DNA from: Nitrospira japonica
GTDB lineage: Bacteria > Nitrospirota > Nitrospiria > Nitrospirales > Nitrospiraceae
Direction of reading: 5' to 3'
NCBI RefSeq assembly: GCF_900169565.1
Contig: NZ_LT828648.1
Location: 2,234,876-2,298,875 of the forward strand
DNA: 64,000 bases
Shown: one piece after another, positions 6,737 through 63,767 of the stretch
Numbering within the stretch: the stretch's first letter is position 1
How the letters are laid out: the number at the start of each line of letters is the position of its first letter
Notes under the pieces: model-generated
What the model was told of the DNA's origin: nothing
Databases searched by the model: none
What the model saw: only the letters and a program-made list of their open reading frames with translations
Program-made: the position numbers and the translations under genes

Positions 6737-8002
6737 ATGGCGTCGACACGTCCGTTATCCATCGCGCAGCTTGAGCAAGCCTTCCGGGAAAAGTCCCGCG
6801 AAGTCGATGTCTTGCATCGGATTACCGATTCCATCAGCAATACGTTGGACCTTGAAGCGGTTCTCAAACACATCGTCGAAGTCGTGGTTGAAGTCACCAA
6901 GGCCGACGCGTGTCTCTTATATCTGTTGTCCGACAAGGGCGACGAACTCATTCTTCGGGCTTCGAAGAACCCTCATCCGAAGCTGATCGGACGCATCACC
7001 ATCGGCATGGGCGAAGGTATTACCGGTTGGGTCGCGCAGGAGCGCACCAGGGTGGTGATTCCGAGCAATGCCAGCGACGATTCCCGCTTCAAGTTTTTTC
7101 ATAATCTTCCGGAAGATCGGCACCAGGCCTTCGTGTCCGTCCCCATCATGGCCAAGAAGGAAGTGGTCGGGGTCATCAACGTGCAACATCGGCGGCCCAA
7201 ACGGTATCGCCCCGATGAACTGGCATTGCTCTCCACCATCGCCAATCAGGTGGGAGGTGCCATCGAAAATGCGCGTTTGTATGAGCAAATGCGACGCAAA
7301 GCATTGCAGGTCGAAACGCTGTCCCAGGTGTCCGAAACGGTCGCGTCGAATCGGCTCATCGAGGACGTCCTGCAGTTGCTCGTTACCATGACGGCGCAAA
7401 TGATGAACTCGAAAATTTGCTCCATCATGTTGCTCGACGGAGCCACCGGAGATCTGCGCATCGAAGCGACGCAGAGTCTGAGCGAGCTCTACCGGCGCAA
7501 GCCCAATTTGAAGATCGGGCAAAGCATCAGCGGGCGTGCGGTACAAGAACGGCGGCCGATCATCGTGGCCGACGTCATGAAGGAACCGAACTACATGTAT
7601 CCGGACATGGCGAGGAAGGAAGGACTGTGTTCGCTGTTGTGCGTTCCGATGCTCGTGAGGGAAAAGGCGGTCGGTGTCATCAACAGCTATACCTCTGCGC
7701 CGTACTCATTTACGAGCGAGGAGGTCAAGCTGCTGCAGGCGATCGCCAACCAGGCAGCCATCGCAATCGAACATACGACCCTGCTTGAGAAGTCATTTGA
7801 AATGCAGGAAGCATTGGCCGTGCGAAAGCTGCTCGATCGCGCCAAAGGCTACCTGATGCGGTCCAAAAAACTGTCTGAAGAAGAAGCTTTCAGGCTCATT
7901 CAGCGGCAGAGCATGGATCTCAGAAAGTCGATGCGGGAAATTGCCGAAGCCGTGCTATTGGCGGGAGAACTGGATGAGCGGGCGGACAAACAACGAGGAT
8001 GA
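6737..8002 (+). CDS. GAF-GAF-ANTAR RNA-binding antitermination regulator
   Basis: 421 residues. After a short helix there are two GAF domains (about 25-185 and 195-345), which usually bind small ligands. A C-terminal ANTAR domain (about 356-410) shows the family pattern LLDRAKGYLM, then EEEAFRLIQRQSMDLRKSM and REIAEAVL. ANTAR three-helix domains dimerise and bind RNA with two hexaloop hairpins, preventing terminator formation. There is no receiver domain, so activity is probably set by GAF ligands or partner proteins and not by phosphorylation. Its inferred targets are the leaders at 9104-9204, 25432-25522, 33346-33441, 33517-33579 and 37458-37550. The domain call is firm; the targets are inference. 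Confidence 0.88.
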   Translation: MASTRPLSIAQLEQAFREKSREVDVLHRITDSISNTLDLEAVLKHIVEVVVEVTKADACLLYLLSDKGDELILRASKNPHPKLIGRITIGMGEGITGWVAQERTRVVIPSNASDDSRFKFFHNLPEDRHQAFVSVPIMAKKEVVGVINVQHRRPKRYRPDELALLSTIANQVGGAIENARLYEQMRRKALQVETLSQVSETVASNRLIEDVLQLLVTMTAQMMNSKICSIMLLDGATGDLRIEATQSLSELYRRKPNLKIGQSISGRAVQERRPIIVADVMKEPNYMYPDMARKEGLCSLLCVPMLVREKAVGVINSYTSAPYSFTSEEVKLLQAIANQAAIAIEHTTLLEKSFEMQEALAVRKLLDRAKGYLMRSKKLSEEEAFRLIQRQSMDLRKSMREIAEAVLLAGELDERADKQRG

Positions 8003-9078: not shown

Positions 9079-9103
9079 TACGCCCGTCTAACGGCTTCAG
9101 CGG

Positions 9104-9204
9104 CGGACAAGGGAGTCCGAATCTGGACCGCCAAAGACGAGGACATGAGAAAAGGACAATGGCGTCCTTTTGGTCCATCATGTGGGCCGGAAGGGCGCTT
9201 TTTT
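9104..9204 (+). promoter_or_regulatory. ANTAR-type antitermination leader A (porin-urtABCDE)
   Basis: Hairpin P1 is CGGAC (9104-9108) and GTCCG (9115-9119) around the six-base loop AAGGGA. Hairpin P2 is an 8-bp stem (9150-9157 with 9164-9171) around AATGGC. Both loops have A at position 1 and G at position 4, the two bases ANTAR proteins require. The 3' side of P2 is also the 5' side of the terminator at 9162-9198, so the two structures exclude each other. ANTAR binding should favour P2 and allow transcription into the porin and urt genes. The sequence match is direct; regulation is inferred. Confidence 0.82.
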
Positions 9205-9209: not shown

Positions 9210-9271
9210 GAATTGAAGTCTGATCCCAACTGGCCAGGGCATTGAGTCAACCAAGAGGGAGATCCACTGTT

Positions 9272-21553: not shown

Positions 21554-23272
21554 TCAGCTGAAAAAGTACAGCTGGTTCAGGGAGATGGATGTTGCCGGTT
21601 TGACGGTCGCGTGGACCCCGTCCACCTTGACGGCAAACGTTTCAGGATTCACCTCGATTTTCGGCGTCAGTCCGTTGCGAACCATGTCACGCTTCGTAAT
21701 CGTGCGTGTGCCGTAGACCGGCATGACTTTGCGCTTCAGGTCCAGCTTCTCCGCGATCCCGTTGTCATAGGCGGCCCGCGAGACGAAGCTGATGCAGGTC
21801 TCGGGCAGGGCCCTGCCGAACGCACCGAACATCGGACGGTAGGTCACCGGCTGAGGCGTCGGCAGGGACGCGTTCGGATCCCCCATGATCGACCAGTTGA
21901 TCAGGCCGCCTTTGATGACCATCTTGGGTTTGGCGCCGAACATGGCCGGTTCCCACAGGACAAGATCGGCCATTTTCCCCGGAGTGATCGAGCCCACGAC
22001 GTGGGAAATGCCCTGGGTGATCGCCGGATTGATCGTCACCTTCGCCACGTAGCGCAAGACACGGAAGTTGTCGTTATTCGGAGCATCCTCCGGCAGCTTG
22101 CCGAGGCCCTTTTTCATCGCATCCGCCGTCTGCATCGCACGGAGCCAGTTCTCACCCACGCGGCCCATGGCCTGCGAGTCGCTCGAAAACATGGAGATCA
22201 CGCCCATGTCGTGGAGGACGTTTTCGGCGGCGATCGTCTCGGGTCTGACCCGGCTCTCGGCAAACGCCACGTCCGACGGCACCTTGGGATTGAGATTGTG
22301 GCAGACCATGATCATGTCGAACAATTCCGCCATCGTGTTGATTCCGTAGGGCAGGGTCGGATTCGTGGAGCTGGGCAACACGTTGAGTTCGCCCGCCACC
22401 TTGATGATGTCGGGCGCGTGGCCGCCTCCGGCGCCTTCGGTGTGATAGGTGTGGATCGTGCGGCCTTCGAAGGCTGCGATGGTGTCTTCGACAAACCCGC
22501 CCTCATTGAGGGTGTCGGTGTGGATGCAGACCTGCACATCCATGTCGTCGGCGACCGAGAGGCTGGCTCGAATCGTGGACGGGGTGGTTCCCCAATCTTC
22601 GTGGATCTTGAAGCCAGCGGCGCCTGCCAATACCTGCTCCACCAGCGGCGCCTTGCCCGAACAATTGCCCTTGCCGAGAAATCCGAAGTTGATCGGCAAC
22701 CCCTCGACCGCCCGAAGCATCATCTCCATGTTCCACCGTCCGGAGGTGATGGTCGTGCCGTTCGTGCCGTCGGTCGGCCCGATGCCGCCGCCGAAGAAGG
22801 TGGTCACGCCGTTGCTCAATGCGGCATAGACCTGCTGCGGAGAGATCATATGGATGTGTCCGTCGTTCCCGCCCGCGGTCAGAATCAAGTGCTCGGCGGT
22901 GATGGCATCGGTGGCGGGGCCGACCGTGAGTCCGGGCGTCACGCCGTCCATGGTGCCGGGGTTGCCGGCCTTGCCCACGCCGACGATCTTGCCGTCCTTG
23001 ATGCCGACATCGGCCTTGACGATCCCCAGCAACGCATCCACCACCGTCACGTTGGTGATCACCAGGTCGAGCGCGCCCCCTTCGCTCGTGAGCTGGTTGT
23101 CCATTCCCATCCCGTCGCGCAATGTCTTGCCGCCGCCGTAGATGGCCTCATCACCATACACCCGCAGATCCTTCTCGATCTCGATATACAGGTCGGTATC
23201 ACCCAGGCGAATCTTGTCTCCGACGGTCGGTCCGAACAGACTCGCGTTCTCCTTCCGAGATATCTGTGACAT
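21554..23272 (-). CDS. ureC: urease subunit alpha
   Basis: 572 residues, normal length. It holds the dinickel site that hydrolyses urea to ammonia and carbamate. The carbamylated lysine lies in [14 protein letters not shown], nickel ligand histidines in [12 protein letters not shown] and [10 protein letters not shown], and the mobile flap in [20 protein letters not shown]. The catalytic flap histidine is kept, while the adjacent second histidine of many enzymes is asparagine here. Residues [12 protein letters not shown] are also standard. Confidence 0.97.
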
Positions 23273-33332: not shown

Positions 33333-33345
33333 CATACTACCCAGT

Positions 33346-33441
33346 CGATCGTAAACAAGGGCGTTTGCGGTCGCTGACATAAGGCACACGGACAAAGGCG
33401 TCCGTCATTCTGCAAAGGATGGCGGGCGCCTTTTAGTTTTT
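33346..33441 (+). promoter_or_regulatory. ANTAR-type antitermination leader C1
   Basis: P1 is an 11-bp stem (33346-33356 with 33363-33373, two G-U) around AAGGGC. P2 is ACGGAC/GTCCGT (33388-33393 with 33400-33405) around AAAGGC. Both loops have A1 and G4. The terminator at 33394-33433 uses the P2 loop and 3' arm as its 5' arm. This is the longest P1 of the set. Confidence 0.83.
33394..33441 (+). terminator. conditional terminator in leader C1
   Basis: Bases 33394-33410 pair at all 17 positions (three G-U) with 33417-33433 around TGCAAA, with TTTTAGTTTTT overlapping the 3' arm. It could also terminate glnA transcripts. Confidence 0.83.
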
Positions 33442-33516
33442 CGGCCGGCCGAGGAGTCTTCCAGGAAGGTCTCCTCCGCGGCTTCGGTGACTGCATCAAG
33501 ACAGCATTAGACGGGT

Positions 33517-33579
33517 CGGCGGAGACTCGTCGCTCTTGGACAAAGGCGTCCTTCCCCGATGAGGGGGAGGACGCCTTTT
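33517..33579 (+). promoter_or_regulatory. second ANTAR-like element C2 in tandem
   Basis: A P2-type hairpin GGAC (33538-33541) and GTCC (33548-33551) encloses AAAGGC (A1, G4). The terminator 33542-33578 pairs at 16 of 16 positions around a five-base loop and is followed by TTTTGTGTTT. The only hexaloop hairpin just upstream (CGGCG/CGTCG, 33517-33532) has loop GAGACT, which lacks A1 and G4. This may be a degenerate or terminator-only copy. The stretch 33442-33516 holds an unrelated hairpin (33451-33476). Confidence 0.65.
33542..33579 (+). terminator. second terminator upstream of the nrtA-like gene
   Basis: Stem 33542-33557 with 33563-33578, one G-U pair only, loop GATGA, then TTTTGTGTTT. It is the most stable terminator of the series, 46 bases before the ATG at 33625. 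Confidence 0.8.
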
Positions 33580-37457: not shown

Positions 37458-37550
37458 GAAGACAACGCAGTCTTCCGTTCCCCCTCCGCAGCGGACAACA
37501 TGCGGACAAAGGCGTCCGTCGTTCTCTTCAGTGGAATGGCGGCGCCTTGT
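37458..37550 (+). promoter_or_regulatory. ANTAR-type antitermination leader D (amtB2 to octaheme cytochrome)
   Basis: P1 is GAAGAC (37458-37463) and GTCTTC (37470-37475) around AACGCA. P2 is GCGGAC/GTCCGT (37502-37507 with 37514-37519, one G-U) around AAAGGC. Both loops have A1 and G4. No convincing promoter is seen between the cynS stop (37363) and P1, so this may be a read-through control point inside a longer transcript. It precedes amtB2 by about 80 bases. Confidence 0.8.
37509..37550 (+). terminator. conditional terminator in leader D, imperfect
   Basis: Bases 37509-37525 pair with 37532-37548, with one bulged base and G-U pairs, followed by GTGTGTTTGTGG, a poor T-run. Termination here is expected to be leakier than in the other leaders. 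Confidence 0.6.
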
Positions 37551-37633: not shown

Positions 37634-38965
37634 ATGGCGATCATGATCGAACGACGTGCGGCGATAAGTGGGGCGGTGGTCGTAGGGGCGGCGCCGGGAA
37701 TATTGCCCGGTTGGGCTTGGGCACAATCTGCGCCTCAAGCGTCATTGATCAGCGGAGCGGATACAGCGTGGGTGCTCCTGTCCGCCGCGTTGGTTCTGAC
37801 GATGATCGTGCCGGGTCTGGCACTGTTTTACGGCGGATTGGTCCGCAGCAAAAACGTATTGGGCACCATCATGCAGAGCTTCGCCATTCTCTGCGTAGTC
37901 AGCCTCCTGTGGGTGACCGTCGGATACAGTCTGGCCTTCGGCCCGGACGTGAGCGGGGTAATCGGCGGGCTCGAATGGATCGGTCTGGCCGGGGTGGGGC
38001 TGACGCCGCACGCCGTGTACGGTCCTACGGTTCCGCACCAAGCGTTCATGATCTTTCAACTCATGTTTGCGGCCATCACCCCGGCGCTGATCACCGGCGC
38101 GTTTGCCGAGCGGATGAAGTTCAGCTCGGTCATGCTCTTCTCCGTGCTGTGGTCCCTGGGCGTCTATTGTCCGGTTGCCCATTGGCTGTGGGGAGGGGGG
38201 TGGCTGGCGCAATTGGGCGCGTTGGACTTCGCCGGCGGCGCGGTGGTGCATGTCAGTTCCGGAATCAGCGCGCTGGTCTGCGCGCTGGTGCTGGGAGCCC
38301 GTCACGGATACGGGACGGATTATATGGCGCCGCACAACCTGCCATTGGTGCTGCTGGGGACCGGTCTCCTGTGGTTCGGCTGGTTCGGATTCAACGCCGG
38401 GAGCGCCTTGGGGGCCAATGAAACGGCCGTGGTGGCGTTTGTGGCGACCCATACGGCGGCGGTGACAGGGGCGCTGACGTGGACGGCGGTCGAATGGTGG
38501 CACCGCGGCACGCCGACCGTGCTGGGCCTGGCGAGCGGGGCCATTGCCGGGTTGGCGATGGTCACACCCGGGGCCGGCTATGTGAGCCCGTTGTCGGCCC
38601 TGCTGATGGGCCTCGCCGCCGGCAGCCTTTCCTACCTCGCGATCATGAAAAAAGGGCGGTGGGGCTATGACGACTCGCTGGACGTCGTGGGCATTCACGG
38701 CGTGTCGGGCGTCGTCGGCGTGCTTTTGACGGGTCTGGTCGCCTCCAAGGCCGTGAATCCTGCCGGGGCCGACGGGCTGGTCTTCGGAAACGTCGCGTTC
38801 TTTGCGGCACAGACGCTGACGGTGGCGGTCGTGGGTGTGTACTCCGCGTTCGGCACGTGGGCTGCGCTGAAGATGGCGGACCGTCTCGTCGGGCTGCGCA
38901 TGCAACCGGATGAGGAGCGCATGGGGTTGGATATCAGTCAACACAATGAACGGGCCTATTCATGA
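37634..38965 (+). CDS. ammonium transporter AmtB (copy 2)
   Basis: 443 residues from ATG 37634 with AAAGGAG upstream. Signal peptide with an ERR start, ending GWAWAQSA, then eleven helices. It is clearly paralogous to copy 1, sharing PGLALFYGGLVRSKNVL and GGGWLAQLGALDFAGGAVVHV. The pore histidines (ATHTAAVTGALTW, GIHGVSGVVGV) and the Phe-gate region (LMFAAITPALITGAFAERMKF) are intact. Unlike copy 1, no PII gene follows. Confidence 0.94.
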   Translation: MAIMIERRAAISGAVVVGAAPGILPGWAWAQSAPQASLISGADTAWVLLSAALVLTMIVPGLALFYGGLVRSKNVLGTIMQSFAILCVVSLLWVTVGYSLAFGPDVSGVIGGLEWIGLAGVGLTPHAVYGPTVPHQAFMIFQLMFAAITPALITGAFAERMKFSSVMLFSVLWSLGVYCPVAHWLWGGGWLAQLGALDFAGGAVVHVSSGISALVCALVLGARHGYGTDYMAPHNLPLVLLGTGLLWFGWFGFNAGSALGANETAVVAFVATHTAAVTGALTWTAVEWWHRGTPTVLGLASGAIAGLAMVTPGAGYVSPLSALLMGLAAGSLSYLAIMKKGRWGYDDSLDVVGIHGVSGVVGVLLTGLVASKAVNPAGADGLVFGNVAFFAAQTLTVAVVGVYSAFGTWAALKMADRLVGLRMQPDEERMGLDISQHNERAYS

Positions 38966-39047
38966 GGTTGGAAAAGGCCAACCCACCTGCGGCCTTGCGA
39001 AGGTCCTTTTTGAGCCTCATGCGATCCATTGTCGGAAAGGAGGAGCC

Positions 39048-39278
39048 ATGAGCATCATTCGGGAAGATAGAGTCGAGGCGACGATCTGTGAAACGCGTCT
39101 CAAGGACATATTGCGTGAGAAGGGGCCGCAAACGCTCGATGCCCTCTGCGCGATGCCTGATTTCGGCTGGGCGCAAGCGCTGCTCGCCGTCGATCATCTC
39201 AGCCGGTCGCATGAGATCGTGCTCAAACTGATCGCGCCCCGCGAGTATCAAGTGTCGCTGGCCGGGGAAGCCCTGTGA
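39048..39278 (+). CDS. small protein with winged-helix-like fold
   Basis: 76 residues from ATG 39048, with AAAGGAGGAG upstream. The pattern of three predicted helices and a short beta pair (LKDILREKGPQTLDALCAM, then EIVLKLIAPREYQVSL) suggests a small winged helix, but I do not recognise a named family. It ends TGATG, overlapping the start of amtB3, so the two are translationally coupled. Role unknown. Confidence 0.6.
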   Translation: MSIIREDRVEATICETRLKDILREKGPQTLDALCAMPDFGWAQALLAVDHLSRSHEIVLKLIAPREYQVSLAGEAL

Positions 39279-40444
39279 TGGAGTCGACCGTGCACACCCT
39301 GTGGCTGCTAGCCTCGGCGACGCTGCTGGTTCTGACCGTCACCGGCATCGCCCTGTTCTACGGCGGGATGGTGCGAAAGAAGAACGTGATGAATACCATG
39401 GCGTTGCCGTTCGCCGCCCTCGCGCTCGCCTCGATCGCATGGGGGCTCGTGACCAACCTCACGGGATTGGGGCGGGACATGGAATCGTCGATCGGCCAAG
39501 CCGCGATCGGTCCGCTGTGGTCGGCCTATCACGGGATCATGGCGGCGATTGCGTTGGCGTTGGTTGCCGGCGGCATCGTCGAGCGGCTCCGCTTTTCATT
39601 TTTTCTCCTCTTCGGACTCTGTTGGATCGGAGCGGTCTATGTACCCCTGGCATGGTGGATCTGGGGCAACGGCTGGCTGGCGTCCCTGGGATGCCTGGAC
39701 TTCGCCGGCGGGGCCGTCATCCACATCAGCGCGGGCGTCAGCGCGCTCGTGCTGGCCCTGGTGGTCGGGCCGCGCAGGGGCTATGGGCGGATCGACATGA
39801 TGCCCAATCACCTGCCCCTGTCCTTCTGCGGCGCCGGGCTCATGTGGGTCGGCTGGTTCGGCTTTACCGGAGCGGCGGTATCTGCGCCGATGACCACGGT
39901 GACGGGTGCGTTCGTGGCGATTCACCTCTCGGCGGTGACGGCGGCGCTTTCCTGGGCTGCGGCCGAATGGCTCCAGCGCGACAAACCCACGGCCCTGGGA
40001 GCGGTAAGCGGAGCCGTGGCCGGATTGGTGGCGGTGTCGCCCGCCGCCGCGTATGTCAGTCCGGCGTCTGCGTTGGTGATCGGCCTCGGGGCGGGGAGCC
40101 TCTGCTACATGGTGGTGAACTACGTGAAGCTCATTCTGGGCTACGACGACTCGCTGGACGTCTTCGGGATGCACGGGGTCGCGGGAACCTGGGGAATGAT
40201 CGCCACCGGTCTGTTCGCTTCGACCGAGGTCAATGCCGCCGGGAACGACGGGCTATTCTTCGGCTATCCCTATCAATTCTTCGTCCAGGTCGTCGCGGTC
40301 TGCGCCGCCTGGGCGTTGGCCGGGGGCGGGAGTTGGCTGTTGTTGAAGGGGCTCATGTGGTTCGTGGATCCGCGAGCGGGCGACGAGGCGGAGACGATGG
40401 GATTGGATCTCCATCAACATGGAGAGAAAGGTTATACGGGATAA
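39278..40444 (+). CDS. divergent Amt-family transporter (copy 3)
   Basis: 388 residues from ATG 39278 (a GTG at 39275 is possible). Eleven predicted helices and the twin-histidine segments (AIHLSAVTAALSW, GMHGVAGTWGMI) are kept. The usual Phe-gate stretch FAxxTPALI is replaced by GIMAAIALALVAGGIVERLRF, and there is no signal peptide. It is followed after two bases by the Rieske gene, an unusual coupling. Transport or a sensing role linked to the electron-transfer cluster are both possible. Confidence 0.85.
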   Translation: MESTVHTLWLLASATLLVLTVTGIALFYGGMVRKKNVMNTMALPFAALALASIAWGLVTNLTGLGRDMESSIGQAAIGPLWSAYHGIMAAIALALVAGGIVERLRFSFFLLFGLCWIGAVYVPLAWWIWGNGWLASLGCLDFAGGAVIHISAGVSALVLALVVGPRRGYGRIDMMPNHLPLSFCGAGLMWVGWFGFTGAAVSAPMTTVTGAFVAIHLSAVTAALSWAAAEWLQRDKPTALGAVSGAVAGLVAVSPAAAYVSPASALVIGLGAGSLCYMVVNYVKLILGYDDSLDVFGMHGVAGTWGMIATGLFASTEVNAAGNDGLFFGYPYQFFVQVVAVCAAWALAGGGSWLLLKGLMWFVDPRAGDEAETMGLDLHQHGEKGYTG

Positions 40445-40446
40445 CC

Positions 40447-40893
40447 ATGGCGATCATTCACGACGACGTCGGGCGCCGACGGTTTCTCAGCCAGGCGGTG
40501 ATGGGATTCGGGATGCTGTTCGGCATGGGCACCCTCGGTTTTCGATTTGTCCAGTTTCTGCTGCCGAACGGAGCGCCACGGCAGCCGGAGACCGTGCTGA
40601 TCGGATCGGAGTCCCGTATCCCGCTGGGTGAAGCGGTTCCCATGGATCTCGGAGGCCAAAAGATTCTGGTGCTGCGGACGGAAGGCGGGGTCGCCGCCTT
40701 TTCCAGGCGCTGTACCGATCTGGGTTGTCTCGTGTCGTGGAATCGGGAACGGGAACAATTCATCTGTCCGTGTCATCAGGGCACGTTCGACAAGACGGGG
40801 CTCAACATCAGCGGGCCGCCTCCGCGGCCGCTGGACCGGCTCGACGTCGTCAAACGCGGCGATCAGCTGTACGTCAACATTCAGAGCACGTAA
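40447..40893 (+). CDS. Rieske iron-sulfur protein with altered cluster motif
   Basis: 148 residues from ATG 40447. A twin-arginine anchor (GRRRFLSQAVMG) precedes the Rieske fold. The second cluster motif is normal (CPCHQGTFD, C107, C109, H110). The first, normally CTHLGC, reads CTDLGC (C89, D91, C94), so one histidine ligand is aspartate (GAT, 40717-40719). It should partner the cytochrome b downstream in quinol oxidation. With only one histidine ligand the cluster could have a different potential or be labile. Confidence 0.88.
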   Translation: MAIIHDDVGRRRFLSQAVMGFGMLFGMGTLGFRFVQFLLPNGAPRQPETVLIGSESRIPLGEAVPMDLGGQKILVLRTEGGVAAFSRRCTDLGCLVSWNREREQFICPCHQGTFDKTGLNISGPPPRPLDRLDVVKRGDQLYVNIQST

Positions 40894-40947
40894 TGCGAAG
40901 AGTATTGGATCGTGATGGTTCAACATTTCTTCCATCAGGGGTAGTCA

Positions 40948-41976
40948 ATGGCCGTCGACACGGTAAAGACCGAAAAAAATGACGTCGGTACGGATAAGTC
41001 CTGGGTGGACTACATCCAAAAGGACCTGCCGGAACACCTGGAATGGTGGCCCTACACCCTGGGCGCCATTCCCCTGACGCTGTTCGGGATTTTGGTGACC
41101 ACCGGCCTGTTGCTGACGTTCTACTACGTGCCGGCTTCCGATCAAGCCTACGAGAGCGTCGATCAGATCACCCACGAGATCTATCTGGGCTGGTTCGTCC
41201 GCGGGCTCCACAAGATATCCGTGGATCTCATGATCCTGTTCCTGTTGTTCCATGTCATCCGGGTGTTCATGACCAGGGCCTATCAGGGCGGCGGCGAGCT
41301 GAAGTGGGTGAGCGGTTCGATCGTGTTGTTCGTCACGCTGGCGATGGGATTCACCGGATATTCGCTGGTCTACGACAACGTGTCCTATTGGGGCATGACG
41401 GTCGTGACCAACATGGTCGGAACGCTGCCGGTCGCCGGACGACCCCTGCTGCATCTGCTGCGGGGCGGCGAGGAGGTGTCGGGGGTGACGCTCCTGCGGC
41501 TGTACGACCTGCATACCAAACTCCTGCCCGTGCTGCTCGGAGGATTGGCGCTCGGACACGTGGTGACGGTGCGTCTGCTCGGCTTTACGACGGTGGCGGG
41601 AAGCCGGGCGTTCCATCCGTTCTATCCCGAACACACGATGAAGATGGGTGCCGTCGCGGTGGGATTTCTCCTGTTCATGGTGGACCTGGTCATGATCTTT
41701 CCGCCGACGCTCGGCCCGCCGGCCAATTTTCAGGAGGTGGCCTCCGACGTCTCGCCTCCCTGGTATTTCTCGGCGCCGTTCATGTGGATCTCGTTGCTGC
41801 CTGGTCCGCTGGCCCTCTGGAGCCTGATGGCCGGCGCGGGACTCTTCGTGGCCTATCCGTTCGTCGATCGCGTGCTGGCCGCGCGCGGATGGCCCATGAC
41901 GTTCATCAACGGGGCGGTGGCCGCGGCGGCGGTCGGAGCGATGGTGGTGCTGATGTATCTGGACTTGCAAGGTTAA
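40948..41976 (+). CDS. cytochrome b of a bc-type complex
   Basis: 342 residues with about eight membrane helices. Four haem-ligand histidines form two spaced pairs: LHKISVDLMILFLLFHVIRV and DLHTKLLPVLLGGLALGH. The b6/subunit-IV parts are fused in one chain, ending soon after the last helix. It is preceded by the Rieske gene and followed by an octaheme cytochrome in place of cytochrome c1. Confidence 0.88.
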   Translation: MAVDTVKTEKNDVGTDKSWVDYIQKDLPEHLEWWPYTLGAIPLTLFGILVTTGLLLTFYYVPASDQAYESVDQITHEIYLGWFVRGLHKISVDLMILFLLFHVIRVFMTRAYQGGGELKWVSGSIVLFVTLAMGFTGYSLVYDNVSYWGMTVVTNMVGTLPVAGRPLLHLLRGGEEVSGVTLLRLYDLHTKLLPVLLGGLALGHVVTVRLLGFTTVAGSRAFHPFYPEHTMKMGAVAVGFLLFMVDLVMIFPPTLGPPANFQEVASDVSPPWYFSAPFMWISLLPGPLALWSLMAGAGLFVAYPFVDRVLAARGWPMTFINGAVAAAAVGAMVVLMYLDLQG

Positions 41977-42007
41977 CGACAGGAACACAGGAGGCAGAAG
42001 GACGCAC

Positions 42008-43432
42008 ATGGACGAGCCCGTGACGGTGTCAGGCGAGGATTCCGGCGCATCCGAGCATGCGAGCGACGGCAGAAGGAATTTTACGCGATACATGATCGGA
42101 GGATTGTGTCTCGTGCTCTTTCTGGCCCTGACAGGCGTCGGATACGTCCAGGTCGAGGAACGTCGCGGCGGCGGCATCAGGCCTTTCGTGTCGGCGGACA
42201 ACAAGAAGTGCATCGATTGCCATACGGCGAAGGACGTGGGCGTCGGCGTCATCAACGACTGGAAGGTCAGCCGCCACGCGCCGAAGGGGATCGGGTGCGT
42301 GGAGTGTCACCGGGCCGAACACGGCGACGCCGACGCCTATGACCACGAAGGATTTCTCATCTCGACGCTGGTGACGCCGAAGGACTGCATGCGCTGTCAC
42401 GATCGTGAAGCGAAAGAATTCGGCAAGTCTCACCACGCCAAGGCGGCGCAGTTCACCGGGTCGCTCGACAATTTCCTGGGCAACGTCGTCGAAGGTCCGG
42501 AGGTCGTCACCACCGGATGCGCCGGCTGCCACGGAAGCGTGGTGAAGGTCCTCGACAAAGGCAAGCTGCATCCGGCCACCTGGCCCAACAGCGGGATCGG
42601 CCGGGTGAACCCGGACGGCTCCAAGGGGACGTGCTCGGCCTGCCATGCGAGGCACAGCTTTTCGGTCGCGCAAGCCAGGCAGCCGGAAAGCTGCGGCCGG
42701 TGCCACATGGGGCCGGATCATCCGCAGATCGAGGCCTACTACGAGAGCAAGCACGGGGTGCTCTATGAGGCAAACAAGGAAAAAATGAAGCTCGCCGAGC
42801 CGGCGGAGAAGTGGCGGCCGGGGAAAAATTATCTCTATCCGACCTGCGCCACCTGCCATATGGGCGCGACAGGATCGCAAGAGGTGACGCACGACGTGGG
42901 GGACCGGATCAGTTGGACCCTGCGGCCGGTCGTCTCGACGAGGCTCGAGAATTTCGAAGACCGGCGGAAGGCCATGAGGCAGGTCTGCGCCTCGTGTCAC
43001 AGCGAACAGATCGTGGAGCGGTTCTTTATTTCGATGGATCAAGGCATCAACTTGTACAATGACAAGTTCGGCAAGCCGGCGAAGGAGGCAATGGACAAGC
43101 TGACGGCCATGAAGAAGATCACGCCTACGCCGTACGACGAAAAGATCGAATGGGTCTTCTACGAGCTGTGGCACCACGAGGGACGCAGGGCCCGGCACGG
43201 GTTGTCGAAGATGGCACCCGACTATGTCCACTGGCAGGGCTTTTACGAAGTGGCCAAGAGCTTTTACACGAAGTTTCTGCCGCTGGTACGGGACCTGTCT
43301 CCGCAAGTGGCCGAGGAACTCCTGCGCAATGAAGGGCACCGCTGGATCGAGCGCGGCATGAGCAAGGAGGACATCTCGCAGATGTTGGAATTTTACGACA
43401 AGGAGATGCAGGGGAAGCGCGGCGGCAGCTGA
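42008..43432 (+). CDS. membrane-anchored octaheme cytochrome c, HAO-like
   Basis: 474 residues. One N-terminal helix (about 29-50) anchors a periplasmic domain with eight CxxCH motifs in order: CIDCH, CVECH, CMRCH, CAGCH, CSACH, CGRCH, CATCH, CASCH. The C-terminal segment HHEGRRARHGLSKMAPDY and QGFYEVAKSFY resembles the hydroxylamine-oxidoreductase family of octaheme cytochromes. Whether the catalytic haem cross-link tyrosine exists cannot be judged by eye. In this cluster it most likely takes electrons from, or gives them to, the Rieske/cytochrome b pair. Confidence 0.85.
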   Translation: MDEPVTVSGEDSGASEHASDGRRNFTRYMIGGLCLVLFLALTGVGYVQVEERRGGGIRPFVSADNKKCIDCHTAKDVGVGVINDWKVSRHAPKGIGCVECHRAEHGDADAYDHEGFLISTLVTPKDCMRCHDREAKEFGKSHHAKAAQFTGSLDNFLGNVVEGPEVVTTGCAGCHGSVVKVLDKGKLHPATWPNSGIGRVNPDGSKGTCSACHARHSFSVAQARQPESCGRCHMGPDHPQIEAYYESKHGVLYEANKEKMKLAEPAEKWRPGKNYLYPTCATCHMGATGSQEVTHDVGDRISWTLRPVVSTRLENFEDRRKAMRQVCASCHSEQIVERFFISMDQGINLYNDKFGKPAKEAMDKLTAMKKITPTPYDEKIEWVFYELWHHEGRRARHGLSKMAPDYVHWQGFYEVAKSFYTKFLPLVRDLSPQVAEELLRNEGHRWIERGMSKEDISQMLEFYDKEMQGKRGGS

Positions 43433-59700: not shown

Positions 59701-61968
59701 TCACAACTTCCCAAACATCCTCTCCCAAAAATCCCTCACCTTCTTCATATGCTCCTCAATGTCATCCTTCAAATGCCGCGCTCCCGCCTGCCAATCATCC
59801 GTGGTGTAGCCGACCCGCCTGGCGAGGAAAATAAACTCGTCTGAGTCGCTCGGGGGCAGTACCAGATCCTTGGCGTGGCCTCTGACCATCCGGAGACCGT
59901 CGATGAGCATGCGGATGAACAGGTAGGCTTTCCGAAGATGGTCGCCGTCCTGTCTGCTGACGATGCCGGATTCCACAAGGCCGTTCAACGCCAGCATCGT
60001 GTTGGGCGTGCGTAGGATCGGATGGCGGTGGCCGTGCATGAGCTGGAGATACTGTACGGCGTACTCGATGTCGATGACGCCGCCCGGACTGAGCTTGACG
60101 TTCACGGTGCCTCGTTCGACGAGTTGCTTGAGCTGCTGCCGTCGCAGATCGAGCGCCGTGGGGAGCTCCCAGGGCTCGCCGCTGTATACGTAGCGATCGC
60201 GATGGGCTTCCACGTGTTTGCCTAGGGCCGCGTCGCCGGCCACGTGGCGCAATTTGATCAAGGCCTGGCGCTCGAACGGCGCAGCCAAACCGTCCTTGCC
60301 GTAGTACTTTGCGATCTCGTCGAGCGGGTTGGCAAGCGAACCCTTGCCTCCGTGCGGGCGCAGGCGCACGTCGAGATGGAAAATGCCTTCCTGTTTGGCC
60401 TCGATCCATTGCAACAATTCTTGCGCGAGCCGCTCGAAATACTCCCCGTTGTCGATGCCGTCTTTGCCGCTCGTCCGTCCCGTTCCCCCATAGACGAACA
60501 GGACTTCGATGTCGGAGGCATAGCCCAGCTCTCTGCCGCCGAACTTGCCCATGCCTAAGATCGTAAACGGGCAGGCTTTCTTTCCCGCGAGGCGCGGTTC
60601 TCCGTACTCTTTCTTGAGCTTGGCGCGGCAGTCGGTCACCGCCCGGTCCAGGATCACTTCCGCCAATTCCGTCAGCGCGAGGGAGAAATCGGCAAGGCCG
60701 GTCGTCGGTTCGACGATGTGCTTCATGTCGATGCGGAACAGCTCGCGATCCTTGAAGCCGTTGAGAGCGGCCTTGCGCTCCTCTTCGGTCTTGGCGCGCG
60801 CAACCGACCGGTCGAGTTCCTTGCGCAGCGACGTCTTGGGTTTGATGAGCGGAGAGTCGCGATAGTCCTGCAGCAGTGGTAGTAAATTATCGTGCTGGCG
60901 GCGGAGGAAATCCTCCCAGAGAAAATCGCTGGCGCCGAGCAATCGGGCGAGGAGCGGAAAGGTCTTCTTATCGGCCAGAAACGCCAGCGCTTCCTGCCTC
61001 GCCTTGCCCGTGCGCTCTTGGACGGTTAGGTCGAGGAATTGATCGAAGGCCTCCAGCGCTTTCGTAGGATCCGGGGCCCAGGTGAGGGCATGGGTGAACT
61101 GTTTGATGAGGACGGCCGTGAGCCGGAGTTGTTGTTGCTCTTCGGCATCCGTCAGCTTCTGCCCGTAGCGGTTGCGGACGTAGAACCGGTCGTGAAGCTT
61201 CTCGCCCTCCAGGGCGATGCTGGCTTTGGCGATGTAGACGTTGCGCATGGCCAGGGCGTTGGCGAAGGCATAGAGAAAGGCGGGCGTGTCGTCCGAGCGG
61301 ATGTCCATGATGGTGTCGGTCGGCGACTGGCCGTTGTCGAAGCTGATCTGGACAGGATGGAGGAGGCCGCTGAAGGAGCCGCGCCGCTGGGCGAGTTGCT
61401 CAACCAGATGGCGGTTGACCGAGTGCCGCGCCTCTTCGACCTGCCCGCCGTCGAGAAGGCCGATGACGGCGCGCAGCTCATCGGCCAGACGGCGGTGTTC
61501 CGCCTCGTCAAACGGCACGCCCTGGACAGGCTGCACCCGGAACACGTCGACGATCTTTTTTCTGCCGAGTCCGGGCCTGGGCGTATTGCGCGCCCGAGAG
61601 CTGTTTCCCGCCGCTCCCTTCGTCGTGGACGGAGCGTGATCGGCAAAGGTATAGATCCGTCCTTCCTCGATGTTGAGCCCGAATGCCGACAGCAGCCCGC
61701 AGATCGTGGCGAATAGCGCAAAATAGTCGTAAGCCACGATCGCCAGTTCCAGACTCCCGTTCGTCGACTCGCCCAGGGACAGTTCACTGAGGTGATCGGG
61801 TGTCAGAGCGGCGGCCATGCGCAGGTGGCGCGCGACCGTCTCCGCCTCGAAGCGACGGAAATATTCCGGATCCATGCGGTCGACGAAGTCGTCGAGAATA
61901 TCCCGCGGCACGTCGCCGGTCATGGGCGACAAGTCTTGGAGAAGGGCTTCGCGCTCCGTGGCATTCAT
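59701..61968 (-). CDS. single-domain GlnE-like adenylyltransferase with N-terminal ACT pair
   Basis: 755 residues from ATG 61968. Two GlnD-like ACT regions come first (YDYFALFATICGLLSAFGLN near 75; MDIRSDDTPAFLYAFANALA near 235), then one nucleotidyltransferase domain with ILGMGKFGGRELGYASDIEV. Classical GlnE has two such domains and no ACT. The usual DxD reads DIE here; the third acidic motif FHLDVRLRPHGGKG is intact. It probably adds or removes AMP on glutamine synthetase under direct glutamine control (inference). Divergent from the other GlnE half. Confidence 0.82.
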   Translation of the reverse strand: MNATEREALLQDLSPMTGDVPRDILDDFVDRMDPEYFRRFEAETVARHLRMAAALTPDHLSELSLGESTNGSLELAIVAYDYFALFATICGLLSAFGLNIEEGRIYTFADHAPSTTKGAAGNSSRARNTPRPGLGRKKIVDVFRVQPVQGVPFDEAEHRRLADELRAVIGLLDGGQVEEARHSVNRHLVEQLAQRRGSFSGLLHPVQISFDNGQSPTDTIMDIRSDDTPAFLYAFANALAMRNVYIAKASIALEGEKLHDRFYVRNRYGQKLTDAEEQQQLRLTAVLIKQFTHALTWAPDPTKALEAFDQFLDLTVQERTGKARQEALAFLADKKTFPLLARLLGASDFLWEDFLRRQHDNLLPLLQDYRDSPLIKPKTSLRKELDRSVARAKTEEERKAALNGFKDRELFRIDMKHIVEPTTGLADFSLALTELAEVILDRAVTDCRAKLKKEYGEPRLAGKKACPFTILGMGKFGGRELGYASDIEVLFVYGGTGRTSGKDGIDNGEYFERLAQELLQWIEAKQEGIFHLDVRLRPHGGKGSLANPLDEIAKYYGKDGLAAPFERQALIKLRHVAGDAALGKHVEAHRDRYVYSGEPWELPTALDLRRQQLKQLVERGTVNVKLSPGGVIDIEYAVQYLQLMHGHRHPILRTPNTMLALNGLVESGIVSRQDGDHLRKAYLFIRMLIDGLRMVRGHAKDLVLPPSDSDEFIFLARRVGYTTDDWQAGARHLKDDIEEHMKKVRDFWERMFGKL

Positions 61969-61976
61969 CGAGTTGC

Positions 61977-62028
61977 AGTATACCCGAAGCGATGGTTCGT
62001 TGTGCGTGTGCGAGCCGGCCAGTATAAT
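61977..62028. promoter_or_regulatory. divergent overlapping promoters of the two glnE-like genes
   Basis: Plus strand: TTGTGC (62000-62005), 17 bases, TATAAT (62023-62028), start near 62035, one or two bases before the ATG at 62037. Minus strand: TATACT (61982-61977), start near 61970 with the ATG at 61968 and a weak -35 overlapping the plus-strand one. Both mRNAs appear leaderless and neither gene has a ribosome site. Confidence 0.55.
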
Positions 62029-62036
62029 GCCGCGCC

Positions 62037-63767
62037 ATGACGCACCGACCTGTCTCATCATCCGCCGGCGCCGGCGATCCTGTGTCGACGCCGCTGCCGG
62101 TTCGGCCCGACCCGACGCCGGTCCTGCTGGCGAAAGAACGGAACGTTCAAGAGGTCCGGGCGATCCTGTCCGCCTATGGCCTGGCCGACCCGGATCAAGC
62201 CGATCGCAATCTGCAGGCCATGGCCGGAGATCCGCATCAGCGCCGCCAGTTGGCCGAACTCTTGCCGATCTTGCTCGAGTCCGTGGGACGCACCGCCGAT
62301 CCCGATCAAGCCCTCAATCATTGGGAACGGTTGCTCGATACTGTCACCCGCTCGTCCTTTCTGGATTATCTGCGCAGCTCTCCCCGGATGCTCGACCTCC
62401 TCTGCACGATTTTCGGCAACAGCGACTCGCTGGCGTTCACCCTCATCCGGGATCCGATGCTGATCTATTGGCTCGCGGAGCAGGATATCTTGTCGCGCCC
62501 GCCGACCTCTGCCGGTATGCACAAGGGACTTCGGGAGCAACTCGGCCAGCTCACGGTGAAGGAACTGAAGCTCGAGGCGGTGCGCCGATTCCGGAGGCGG
62601 GAAATGCTGCGGATCGGGGTGCGCGATTTATTGCGGCTGGCCGACGTGCGGGAGACGACCGGATCGTTGTCCGATCTGGCCGGTTTGCTGATCCATGCCG
62701 TCTACGAAATCGTCGACGCCGACCTGCGCCGGCAGTACGGCGTGCCCATGCACCGGGATCGCCGCGGCAAATGGGTCGAGACGGGCTTTGCCGTCATGGG
62801 GATGGGTAAGCTCGGCGGGCATGAGTTGAACTACAGCTCCGACGTGGACTTGATCTACGTCTATGAGTCCCATGACGGGGAGACCCGGGCGCCGCGCGGA
62901 CGGGTCGCGAGCCGCGCGGCTGCGGCGGGGATCTCCAATGAAGAATACTTTGAGATCCTGGCGCGGGAACTGACCAAGGCCTTGGTGGAACCGAGCAAAG
63001 AAGGACGCATTTTTCGCGTCGATTTGCGTTTGAGGGCCGAAGGTTCGATCGGGCAATTGGCCCGCTCGCTGGACGAGTACCGCTCCTACTATCGAACGAG
63101 AGGACAGGTGTGGGAGCGACTGGCGTTGCTCAAGGCGTGGCCCATCGCCGGCTCGATCGAGGTGGGCAAGGCGTTTCTGCGGCTCGTCAAACCCTTCATT
63201 TTCGGCGCCGCCGCGAGGCTGCGCCGTTCCGAGGCGCTTGCGATCGTGGAGGACGTGCGGGCGGTGAAGGACATGATCGACGCCAAGATCGCGGAACGGG
63301 GACACGAGGGCCGAAACGTCAAGCTCGGCACCGGCGGGATCAGGGAGATCGAATTCCTGGTCCAGACCATTCAAGTCCTGGCCGGCAAGACGGTCCCGGC
63401 CGTACTCGACCGCGGCACGCTCGGCGCGCTGGATCGGCTCGTGGCCAAGACCGTGCTGACGGCGAAGGAACGCGACGCGCTGGCGCAGGCCTATGTCTTC
63501 CTCCGGGACGTGGAACACAAGCTGCAGATGGTGCACGACCTTCAAACTCACGCGCTGCCGCAGGAGGAGGATGAGTTGGAGCGTTGCGCAATCAGGATGG
63601 GATACGAAGAGGGGAGCCGCTCGGCTGCCAGCCGGGCCTTCAGCGCCGACCATCGCCGGCATACGGCATTGGTCAATGGGGTGTTCCGCTCCTTCTTCAA
63701 CGAGCCCAATACGTCGGCGCTCTTGAAGGTGACCCTGAAGATGTCCGGGCTTCGCGCCGTGCGGTGA
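62037..63767 (+). CDS. glnE: single-domain GlnE-like adenylyltransferase
   Basis: 576 residues. One GlnE nucleotidyltransferase domain with VMGMGKLGGHELNYSSDVDL, third motif FRVDLRLRAEGSIG, and the following helical domain (NVKLGTGGIREIEFLVQTIQ) typical of adenylyltransferase halves. The second catalytic domain of full-length GlnE (about 950 residues) is absent and probably supplied by the divergent gene. Acts on the adenylylatable tyrosine of GlnA. Confidence 0.85.
   Translation: MTHRPVSSSAGAGDPVSTPLPVRPDPTPVLLAKERNVQEVRAILSAYGLADPDQADRNLQAMAGDPHQRRQLAELLPILLESVGRTADPDQALNHWERLLDTVTRSSFLDYLRSSPRMLDLLCTIFGNSDSLAFTLIRDPMLIYWLAEQDILSRPPTSAGMHKGLREQLGQLTVKELKLEAVRRFRRREMLRIGVRDLLRLADVRETTGSLSDLAGLLIHAVYEIVDADLRRQYGVPMHRDRRGKWVETGFAVMGMGKLGGHELNYSSDVDLIYVYESHDGETRAPRGRVASRAAAAGISNEEYFEILARELTKALVEPSKEGRIFRVDLRLRAEGSIGQLARSLDEYRSYYRTRGQVWERLALLKAWPIAGSIEVGKAFLRLVKPFIFGAAARLRRSEALAIVEDVRAVKDMIDAKIAERGHEGRNVKLGTGGIREIEFLVQTIQVLAGKTVPAVLDRGTLGALDRLVAKTVLTAKERDALAQAYVFLRDVEHKLQMVHDLQTHALPQEEDELERCAIRMGYEEGSRSAASRAFSADHRRHTALVNGVFRSFFNEPNTSALLKVTLKMSGLRAVR

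Follow-up and report, generated by a model that had tools for sequence, protein, structure and literature searches.

A 64-kb part (hereafter the window; G000:C1:2234876-2298875) of a complete 4.08 Mb Nitrospira genome carries a gene unit encoding a divergent Amt ammonium transporter (AmtB3), a Rieske-type iron-sulfur subunit, a cytochrome b and an octaheme cytochrome c (OCC; 'ONR' in the Nitrospira literature). In canonical (nitrite-oxidizing, not comammox) Nitrospira, this unit is likely to serve as the assimilatory nitrite reductase, fed by a quinol complex. Box I of its Rieske subunit holds an Asp in place of the first His ligand, and its cytochrome b reads PPWY where PEWY is expected at the Qo motif. 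The box I Asp, the most unusual feature of the unit, was missed by the first-pass annotation, an earlier reading of the same DNA. The tight amtB3-Rieske-cytochrome b-octaheme set described there was confirmed, with all genes on one strand, intergenic gaps of 2, 54 and 31 nt, eight CXXCH motifs and a membrane anchor. The wording 'fused in operon', taken as a protein fusion, had to be rejected, as the open reading frames (ORFs) are separate.

The gene unit itself has been described before: in canonical Nitrospira, it is published as the assimilatory nitrite reductase, with Rieske/cytochrome b as its partner. Publications covering N. moscoviensis, N. japonica and the order Nitrospirales place 'ONR' or 'OCC' next to Rieske/cytochrome b in a nitrogen-assimilation cluster; the function they suggest is nitrite reduction to ammonium, with the quinone pool as electron source (PMC6606698, PMC12342949, PMC6311188, PMC5767232). 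With nitrite as the sole nitrogen source, N. moscoviensis expresses ONR, Rieske/cytochrome b and amtB_3 highly and amtB_2 at a low level (PMC6606698); in N. japonica, ammonium addition lowers the ONR transcript (PMC7522533). The window OCC shares 83% identity with the N. moscoviensis protein and 90% with its counterpart in Nitrospira sp. CR1.3, and gene set, gene order and nitrogen-assimilation setting are alike in N. moscoviensis, N. japonica and other canonical Nitrospira with ONR/OCC and petBC. The order amtB3-Rieske-cytochrome b-OCC was seen in all sufficiently long Nitrospira loci, so the arrangement is not due to chance. Compared with these loci the window shows no essential difference, the His-to-Asp change and PPWY being common to those examined. 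Electron transfer in this known unit has so far merely been guessed, and according to the literature searched, which gave no match for CTDLGC together with Rieske, the His-to-Asp change and PPWY in Nitrospira ONR loci are apparently unreported.

Altered Rieske box I and Qo motifs

Box I of the window Rieske subunit is CTDLGC rather than CTHLGC, box II contains CPCH, and Asp91 aligns opposite the His of CTHLGC in alignments with PDB sequences. The conserved Rieske coordination motif, as given in a review, is Cys-X-His-X15-47-Cys-X2-His, that is, 2Cys-2His (PMC11138216). Apart from the Asp, the window sequence fits the published spacing (Cys-X-Asp...Cys-X2-His), leaving it one His short of the 2Cys-2His set. 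Additionally, the box II Ser is lost (CPCHGS to CPCHQG).

The Asp was found in 12 out of 12 OCC-selected Nitrospira loci showing a Rieske gene, as well as in the window, and in all 24 distinct ONR-linked Rieske sequences, a set that was in part chosen by the motif itself. An unbiased check recovered CTDLGC...CPCH in ten out of ten OCC-bearing Nitrospiraceae genomes. Both Asp codons occur (GAC in 11 and GAT in eight distinct sequences), and the Asp form makes up a single clade in the Rieske tree (support 100/94, from a short alignment). Outside this clade, the comparison covered Nitrospirota and a few aligned PDB Rieske proteins: the other bc-type Rieske protein of the window genome has CTHLGC, and all 17 non-ONR Nitrospirota Rieske proteins adjoining a cytochrome b, taken from the 20 next-best cytochrome b loci, have His in box I. 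The only CTDxGC match outside Nitrospiraceae (genome G328) was spurious and contained an in-frame stop. Among the ONR-linked proteins, four Cys, the second His, the GPP loop and the twin-Arg motif of the N-terminal anchor (GRRRFLSQ in the window) are invariant, and the Rieske site therefore looks functional, not decayed. AF2 modelling gave a Rieske fold (pLDDT 73.5), for which Foldseek returned a Chlorobaculum Rieske protein and kuste4569 as best matches.

The cytochrome b, the nearest PDB match of which is cytochrome b6, keeps all four heme-ligand His residues (H88, H102, H189 and H204). Its Qo motif lies within SPPWYF, which is present in 21 out of 21 distinct ONR-linked cytochrome b sequences, none of them thus having a PEWY-type site; in the other Nitrospirota cytochrome b proteins, examined at the 20 next-best loci, the 14 Qo motifs that could be read all show PEWY. 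Full-length ONR cytochrome b sequences score ~660-700 bits on their own model, compared to 200 bits for the next best in the phylum, and this gap sets ONR cytochrome b apart as a separate branch.

Class and likely chemistry of the octaheme cytochrome

The OCC has eight CXXCH motifs and an uncleaved hydrophobic segment at its N terminus, which serves as membrane anchor; CXXCK was absent from every OCC examined. Searching the PDB with the window protein gave 4qo5, the IhOCC of Ignicoccus, as top match (E 4.7e-44), followed by the Kuenenia HAO-like protein 6h5l (7e-25) and HAO (1e-23), with no TvNiR chain among the matches at E <= 1. In a maximum-likelihood tree of 57 sequences, in which some long branches are uncertain, the window OCC, the other Nitrospirota OCCs and IhOCC form one clade with 100/100 support, separate from N. 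europaea HAO, comammox HAO and the Kuenenia HAO-like proteins. The single match to the octaheme query in the window genome at E <= 1e-3 implies that it has no HAO, and no NrfA was found there either.

Alignment with HAO of N. europaea (1fgj) allowed comparison of the active sites. HAO, including that of comammox, resembles the OCC in its eight CXXCH motifs, conserved core and active-site Asp-His pair. In contrast to HAO, the Nitrospira protein has Arg306 at the position of Tyr334 and lacks the cross-linking Tyr467, the column of which is occupied by His408. This His adjoins the invariant Trp409 within HWQGFYE, itself invariant in 21 distinct orthologues, and the sole nearby Tyr, at residue 406, gives way to Phe in seven of the 21. 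IhOCC from Ignicoccus hospitalis likewise has no Tyr in the cross-link column, but differs at HAO His268, which is retained in the Nitrospira OCC and replaced by Val in IhOCC.

Clade and missing Tyr together place the OCC with the IhOCC-like proteins. An identity as HAO was rejected despite the eight CXXCH motifs and HAO-like core, given the missing Tyr and the separate clade, and so was a TvNiR-type ONR in the strict sense, as there is neither a CXXCK catalytic heme nor similarity to TvNiR. The name 'ONR' is thus misleading for what is an IhOCC-type octaheme protein. The first-pass annotation had proposed phylogeny and the cross-link Tyr as checks: the former groups the OCC with Nitrospirota OCCs and IhOCC, not with HAO, and the latter finds His or Trp in place of Tyr467. 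Its suggestion of a quinone-linked unit in which the octaheme protein replaces cytochrome c1, belongs to a superfamily active on nitrogen oxides and is tied to ammonium transport is supported. Of the quinone-linked chemistries that it left open, nitrite reduction is favoured by the missing Tyr and the position outside the HAO clade, and hydroxylamine oxidation of the HAO kind appears unlikely, reductive chemistry being the better reading of the sequence.

To place the unit in a wider context, 196 Nitrospirota genomes were searched and 40 stretches around matches were read. In these stretches, no OCC relative outside Nitrospiraceae had a Rieske/cytochrome b neighbour. In some of them, the same OCC family stands beside a different membrane cytochrome of quinol-oxidizing type, the tetraheme NapC, for which a Q cycle is not expected. 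A NapC-like tetraheme gene adjoins the OCC gene in two genomes of family f2 (Pfam-confirmed for locus L093), in agreement with what has been published for lineage IV (PMC12342949), and in families f24 and f31 the OCC gene is followed by an Amt gene and then a NapC-type gene (L095 in G192 and L097 in G122). The recurrent linkage of OCC, quinol dehydrogenase and ammonium transport independently supports the reduction of nitrite to ammonium.

Two further observations were made in this survey. The OCC-Amt-NapC arrays outside Nitrospiraceae represent an independent pairing of an octaheme cytochrome with an ammonium transporter, and at three loci (L080-L082) the OCC genes are followed by those of two small proteins (~270 and ~160 aa), with weak TPR matches in L080.

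Electron supply and competing explanations

In the mechanism that we propose, a reduced bc-type complex, made up of cytochrome b and the Tat-anchored Rieske subunit, would oxidize quinol at the membrane, and the OCC would take the place of the missing cytochrome c1/f. Electrons would pass from the Rieske head to the membrane-anchored, periplasmic octaheme cytochrome, the presumed site of six-electron reduction of nitrite to ammonium; Rieske subunit, cytochrome b and OCC would form one complex. AmtB3 may then import ammonium for the glutamine synthetase (GS), GlnB and GlnD of the same cluster.

Asp91 may act as a ligand of the [2Fe-2S] cluster and, together with the loss of the box II Ser, could confer a lower potential suiting a low-potential quinol. 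Box II Ser mutants of the yeast Rieske protein show a drop of ~130 mV (PMC12954380); exchanging a neutral His for Asp and losing this Ser should lower the Rieske potential. From the sequences, we infer an Asp-ligated, low-potential Rieske protein or an altered Q cycle. The chances appear about even that the Nitrospira complex binds its [2Fe-2S] cluster by two Cys, one His and one Asp, operates a Qo site without the PEWY Glu and is dedicated to the OCC. If it does, it would be a natural exception to the 2Cys-2His Rieske rule in a quinol-oxidizing bc-type complex. The clade, with its Asp and lost Qo Glu, would then offer a natural test of the roles of the His ligands and the Glu in quinol oxidation, and an example of the ways in which bc complexes can be tuned to drive nitrite reduction.

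Several points weigh against this picture. For the OCC, the C-terminal alignment register near Tyr467 is weak (either His408 or Trp409 may occupy the column), and the structure model is poor (pLDDT 41, 13 close sequences), so that the active-site geometry relies on alignment. Sequence cannot separate ammonium from NO or hydroxylamine as the product, and no biochemistry of a Nitrospira OCC was found in the literature searched, where the case for nitrite reduction to ammonium comes from expression (PMC6606698). The window genome also encodes a NirA/sulfite-reductase-like protein, scoring below every NCBIfam cut-off, in view of which ONR may not be the sole assimilatory nitrite reductase. For the Rieske subunit, the AF2 model is least confident at residues 90-92, and Asp91 could instead mark a lost or three-coordinate cluster, which is the main rival.

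According to this rival, the Rieske subunit has no cluster or a three-ligand one and is merely structural, with cytochrome b passing electrons directly to the OCC in a non-bifurcating manner resembling NapC or NrfH-NrfA. In its favour, a His ligand is missing and so is the Qo Glu, which is among the groups presumed to accept quinol protons; the OCC relatives that use NapC need no Q cycle. A dead cluster site would, however, be expected to drift, whereas the four Cys, second His, GPP loop and twin-Arg motif are all invariant and purifying selection on the Rieske gene is strong (dN/dS ~0.10, next to 0.06 for cytochrome b and 0.05 for OCC). We regard a merely structural Rieske subunit as unlikely.

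It is less probable still that the OCC mainly handles hydroxylamine or NO, in detoxification or disproportionation, and not assimilatory nitrite reduction. The protein belongs to the HAO/OCC superfamily, and hydroxylamine and NO are substrates of many octaheme enzymes, but the cross-link Tyr is missing, the OCC lies outside the HAO clade, expression tracks the absence of ammonium (PMC6606698, PMC7522533) and the genes sit in a nitrogen-assimilation cluster with Amt, GS, PII, cyanase and urea-transport genes.

A parallel to a Rieske/cytochrome b pair that serves an octaheme protein is Kuste4569-4574 of Kuenenia stuttgartiensis, in which an octaheme HAO-like protein likewise stands in for cytochrome c1/f (PMC12954380). 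There, the Rieske protein Kuste4569 has CTHLGC with both His and a potential of +303 mV, and the complex additionally contains an NAD(P) oxidoreductase and multiheme subunits, with no mention of Amt (PMC12954380). Electron bifurcation as proposed for this anammox system, with high-potential electrons going to nitrite and low-potential ones to another acceptor, is very improbable for Nitrospira: even though the pairing is shared and the Kuenenia Rieske protein is the closest solved sequence (9rk4), the window unit has no NAD(P) oxidoreductase gene, and the substitutions described here suggest a lower potential than those of the Kuenenia Rieske proteins, which have both His and exceed +300 mV.

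Gene neighbourhood and ANTAR-type leaders

The positions of the unit and of its key residues are given in Table 1. AmtB3 retains the pore motifs of Amt proteins, with the Asp in DFAGGAVIH and the twin-His in GYDDSLDVFGMHG. The small ORF preceding amtB3 overlaps its start by 1 nt (TGATG), and the two are possibly translationally coupled. Upstream lie genes for a cyanase (cynS), a nitrate/cyanate-type ABC transporter, glutamine synthetase (glnA), GlnD and PII (glnB), as well as a further amt and a urea-type (branched-chain family) ABC transporter.

Table 1. Coordinates of the amtB3-Rieske-cytochrome b-OCC unit, its key residues and nearby features in the window
Feature	Position	Strand	Basis or remark
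Predicted ANTAR-type two-hairpin leader of amtB2	37458..37519	+	P1 37458-37475, P2 37502-37519; ANNNGN hexaloops
amtB2	37634-38965	+	
Small ORF, ~76 aa	39049-39278	+	Start codon 39049; no Pfam family
amtB3, divergent Amt ammonium transporter, 388 aa	39278-40444	+	Pfam PF00909, E 8.9e-89
Rieske-type iron-sulfur subunit, 148 aa	40447-40893	+	PF00355, E 3.1e-12
Asp91 codon (GAT), in place of first His ligand	40717..40719	+	Sequence; alignments
Cytochrome b (b6 + subunit-IV-like part), 342 aa	40948-41976	+	PF00033, E 1.1e-45
Qo motif, PPWY for PEWY	41755..41766	+	
Octaheme cytochrome c (OCC, 'ONR'), 474 aa	42008-43432	+	Multi-haem_cyto, E 2e-31
Asp237-His238 (HAO active-site Asp267-His268), retained	42716..42721	+	Alignment with 1fgj
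Arg306 at HAO active-site Tyr334 position	42923..42925	+	Alignment with 1fgj
His408 in HAO cross-link Tyr467 column, no Tyr	43229..43231	+	Alignment with 1fgj

The first-pass annotation had placed the unit behind an ANTAR leader with amtB2. The leader itself is supported: its hexaloops carry A1 and G4, and the second hairpin appears able to compete with a terminator, as in ANTAR-type leaders, while the fold z-score is -2.4. The exact 14-mer of the second hairpin, GGACAAAGGCGTCC, has three copies in the 4.08 Mb genome, all of them inside the window, two before an ABC transporter gene (33559) and one before amtB2; a copy with one mismatch precedes the ORF at 9242. The only ANTAR protein of the genome (GAF-GAF-ANTAR) is encoded in the same window, at 6737-8002. 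Control of the octaheme unit by this leader is doubtful. A terminator-like site lies between amtB2 and amtB3 (38991-39005) and, taken together with the low expression of amtB_2 in N. moscoviensis (PMC6606698), argues for independent transcription of the ONR unit; the ANTAR leader is probably not its driver.

The leaders were found by a looser tandem-hairpin scan, a strict scan having missed them. Further ANTAR-type hairpins or leaders were predicted at 33347-33405 and 33538-33551, before the nitrate/cyanate-type ABC transporter gene, and at ~9102-9170, before the ORF at 9242; for the leader at 33343-33445, the fold z-score is -7.2 and the terminator overlaps the second hairpin.

Elsewhere in the window, two ORFs for GlnE-like adenylyltransferases, at 59701-62061 (-) and 62037-63767 (+), are arranged head-to-head with a 25-base overlap. 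The sole Rfam match, 5_ureB_sRNA at 22822-23117 (+), runs antisense to a probable urease alpha ORF (21554-23272, -) and is probably an echo of conserved coding sequence.

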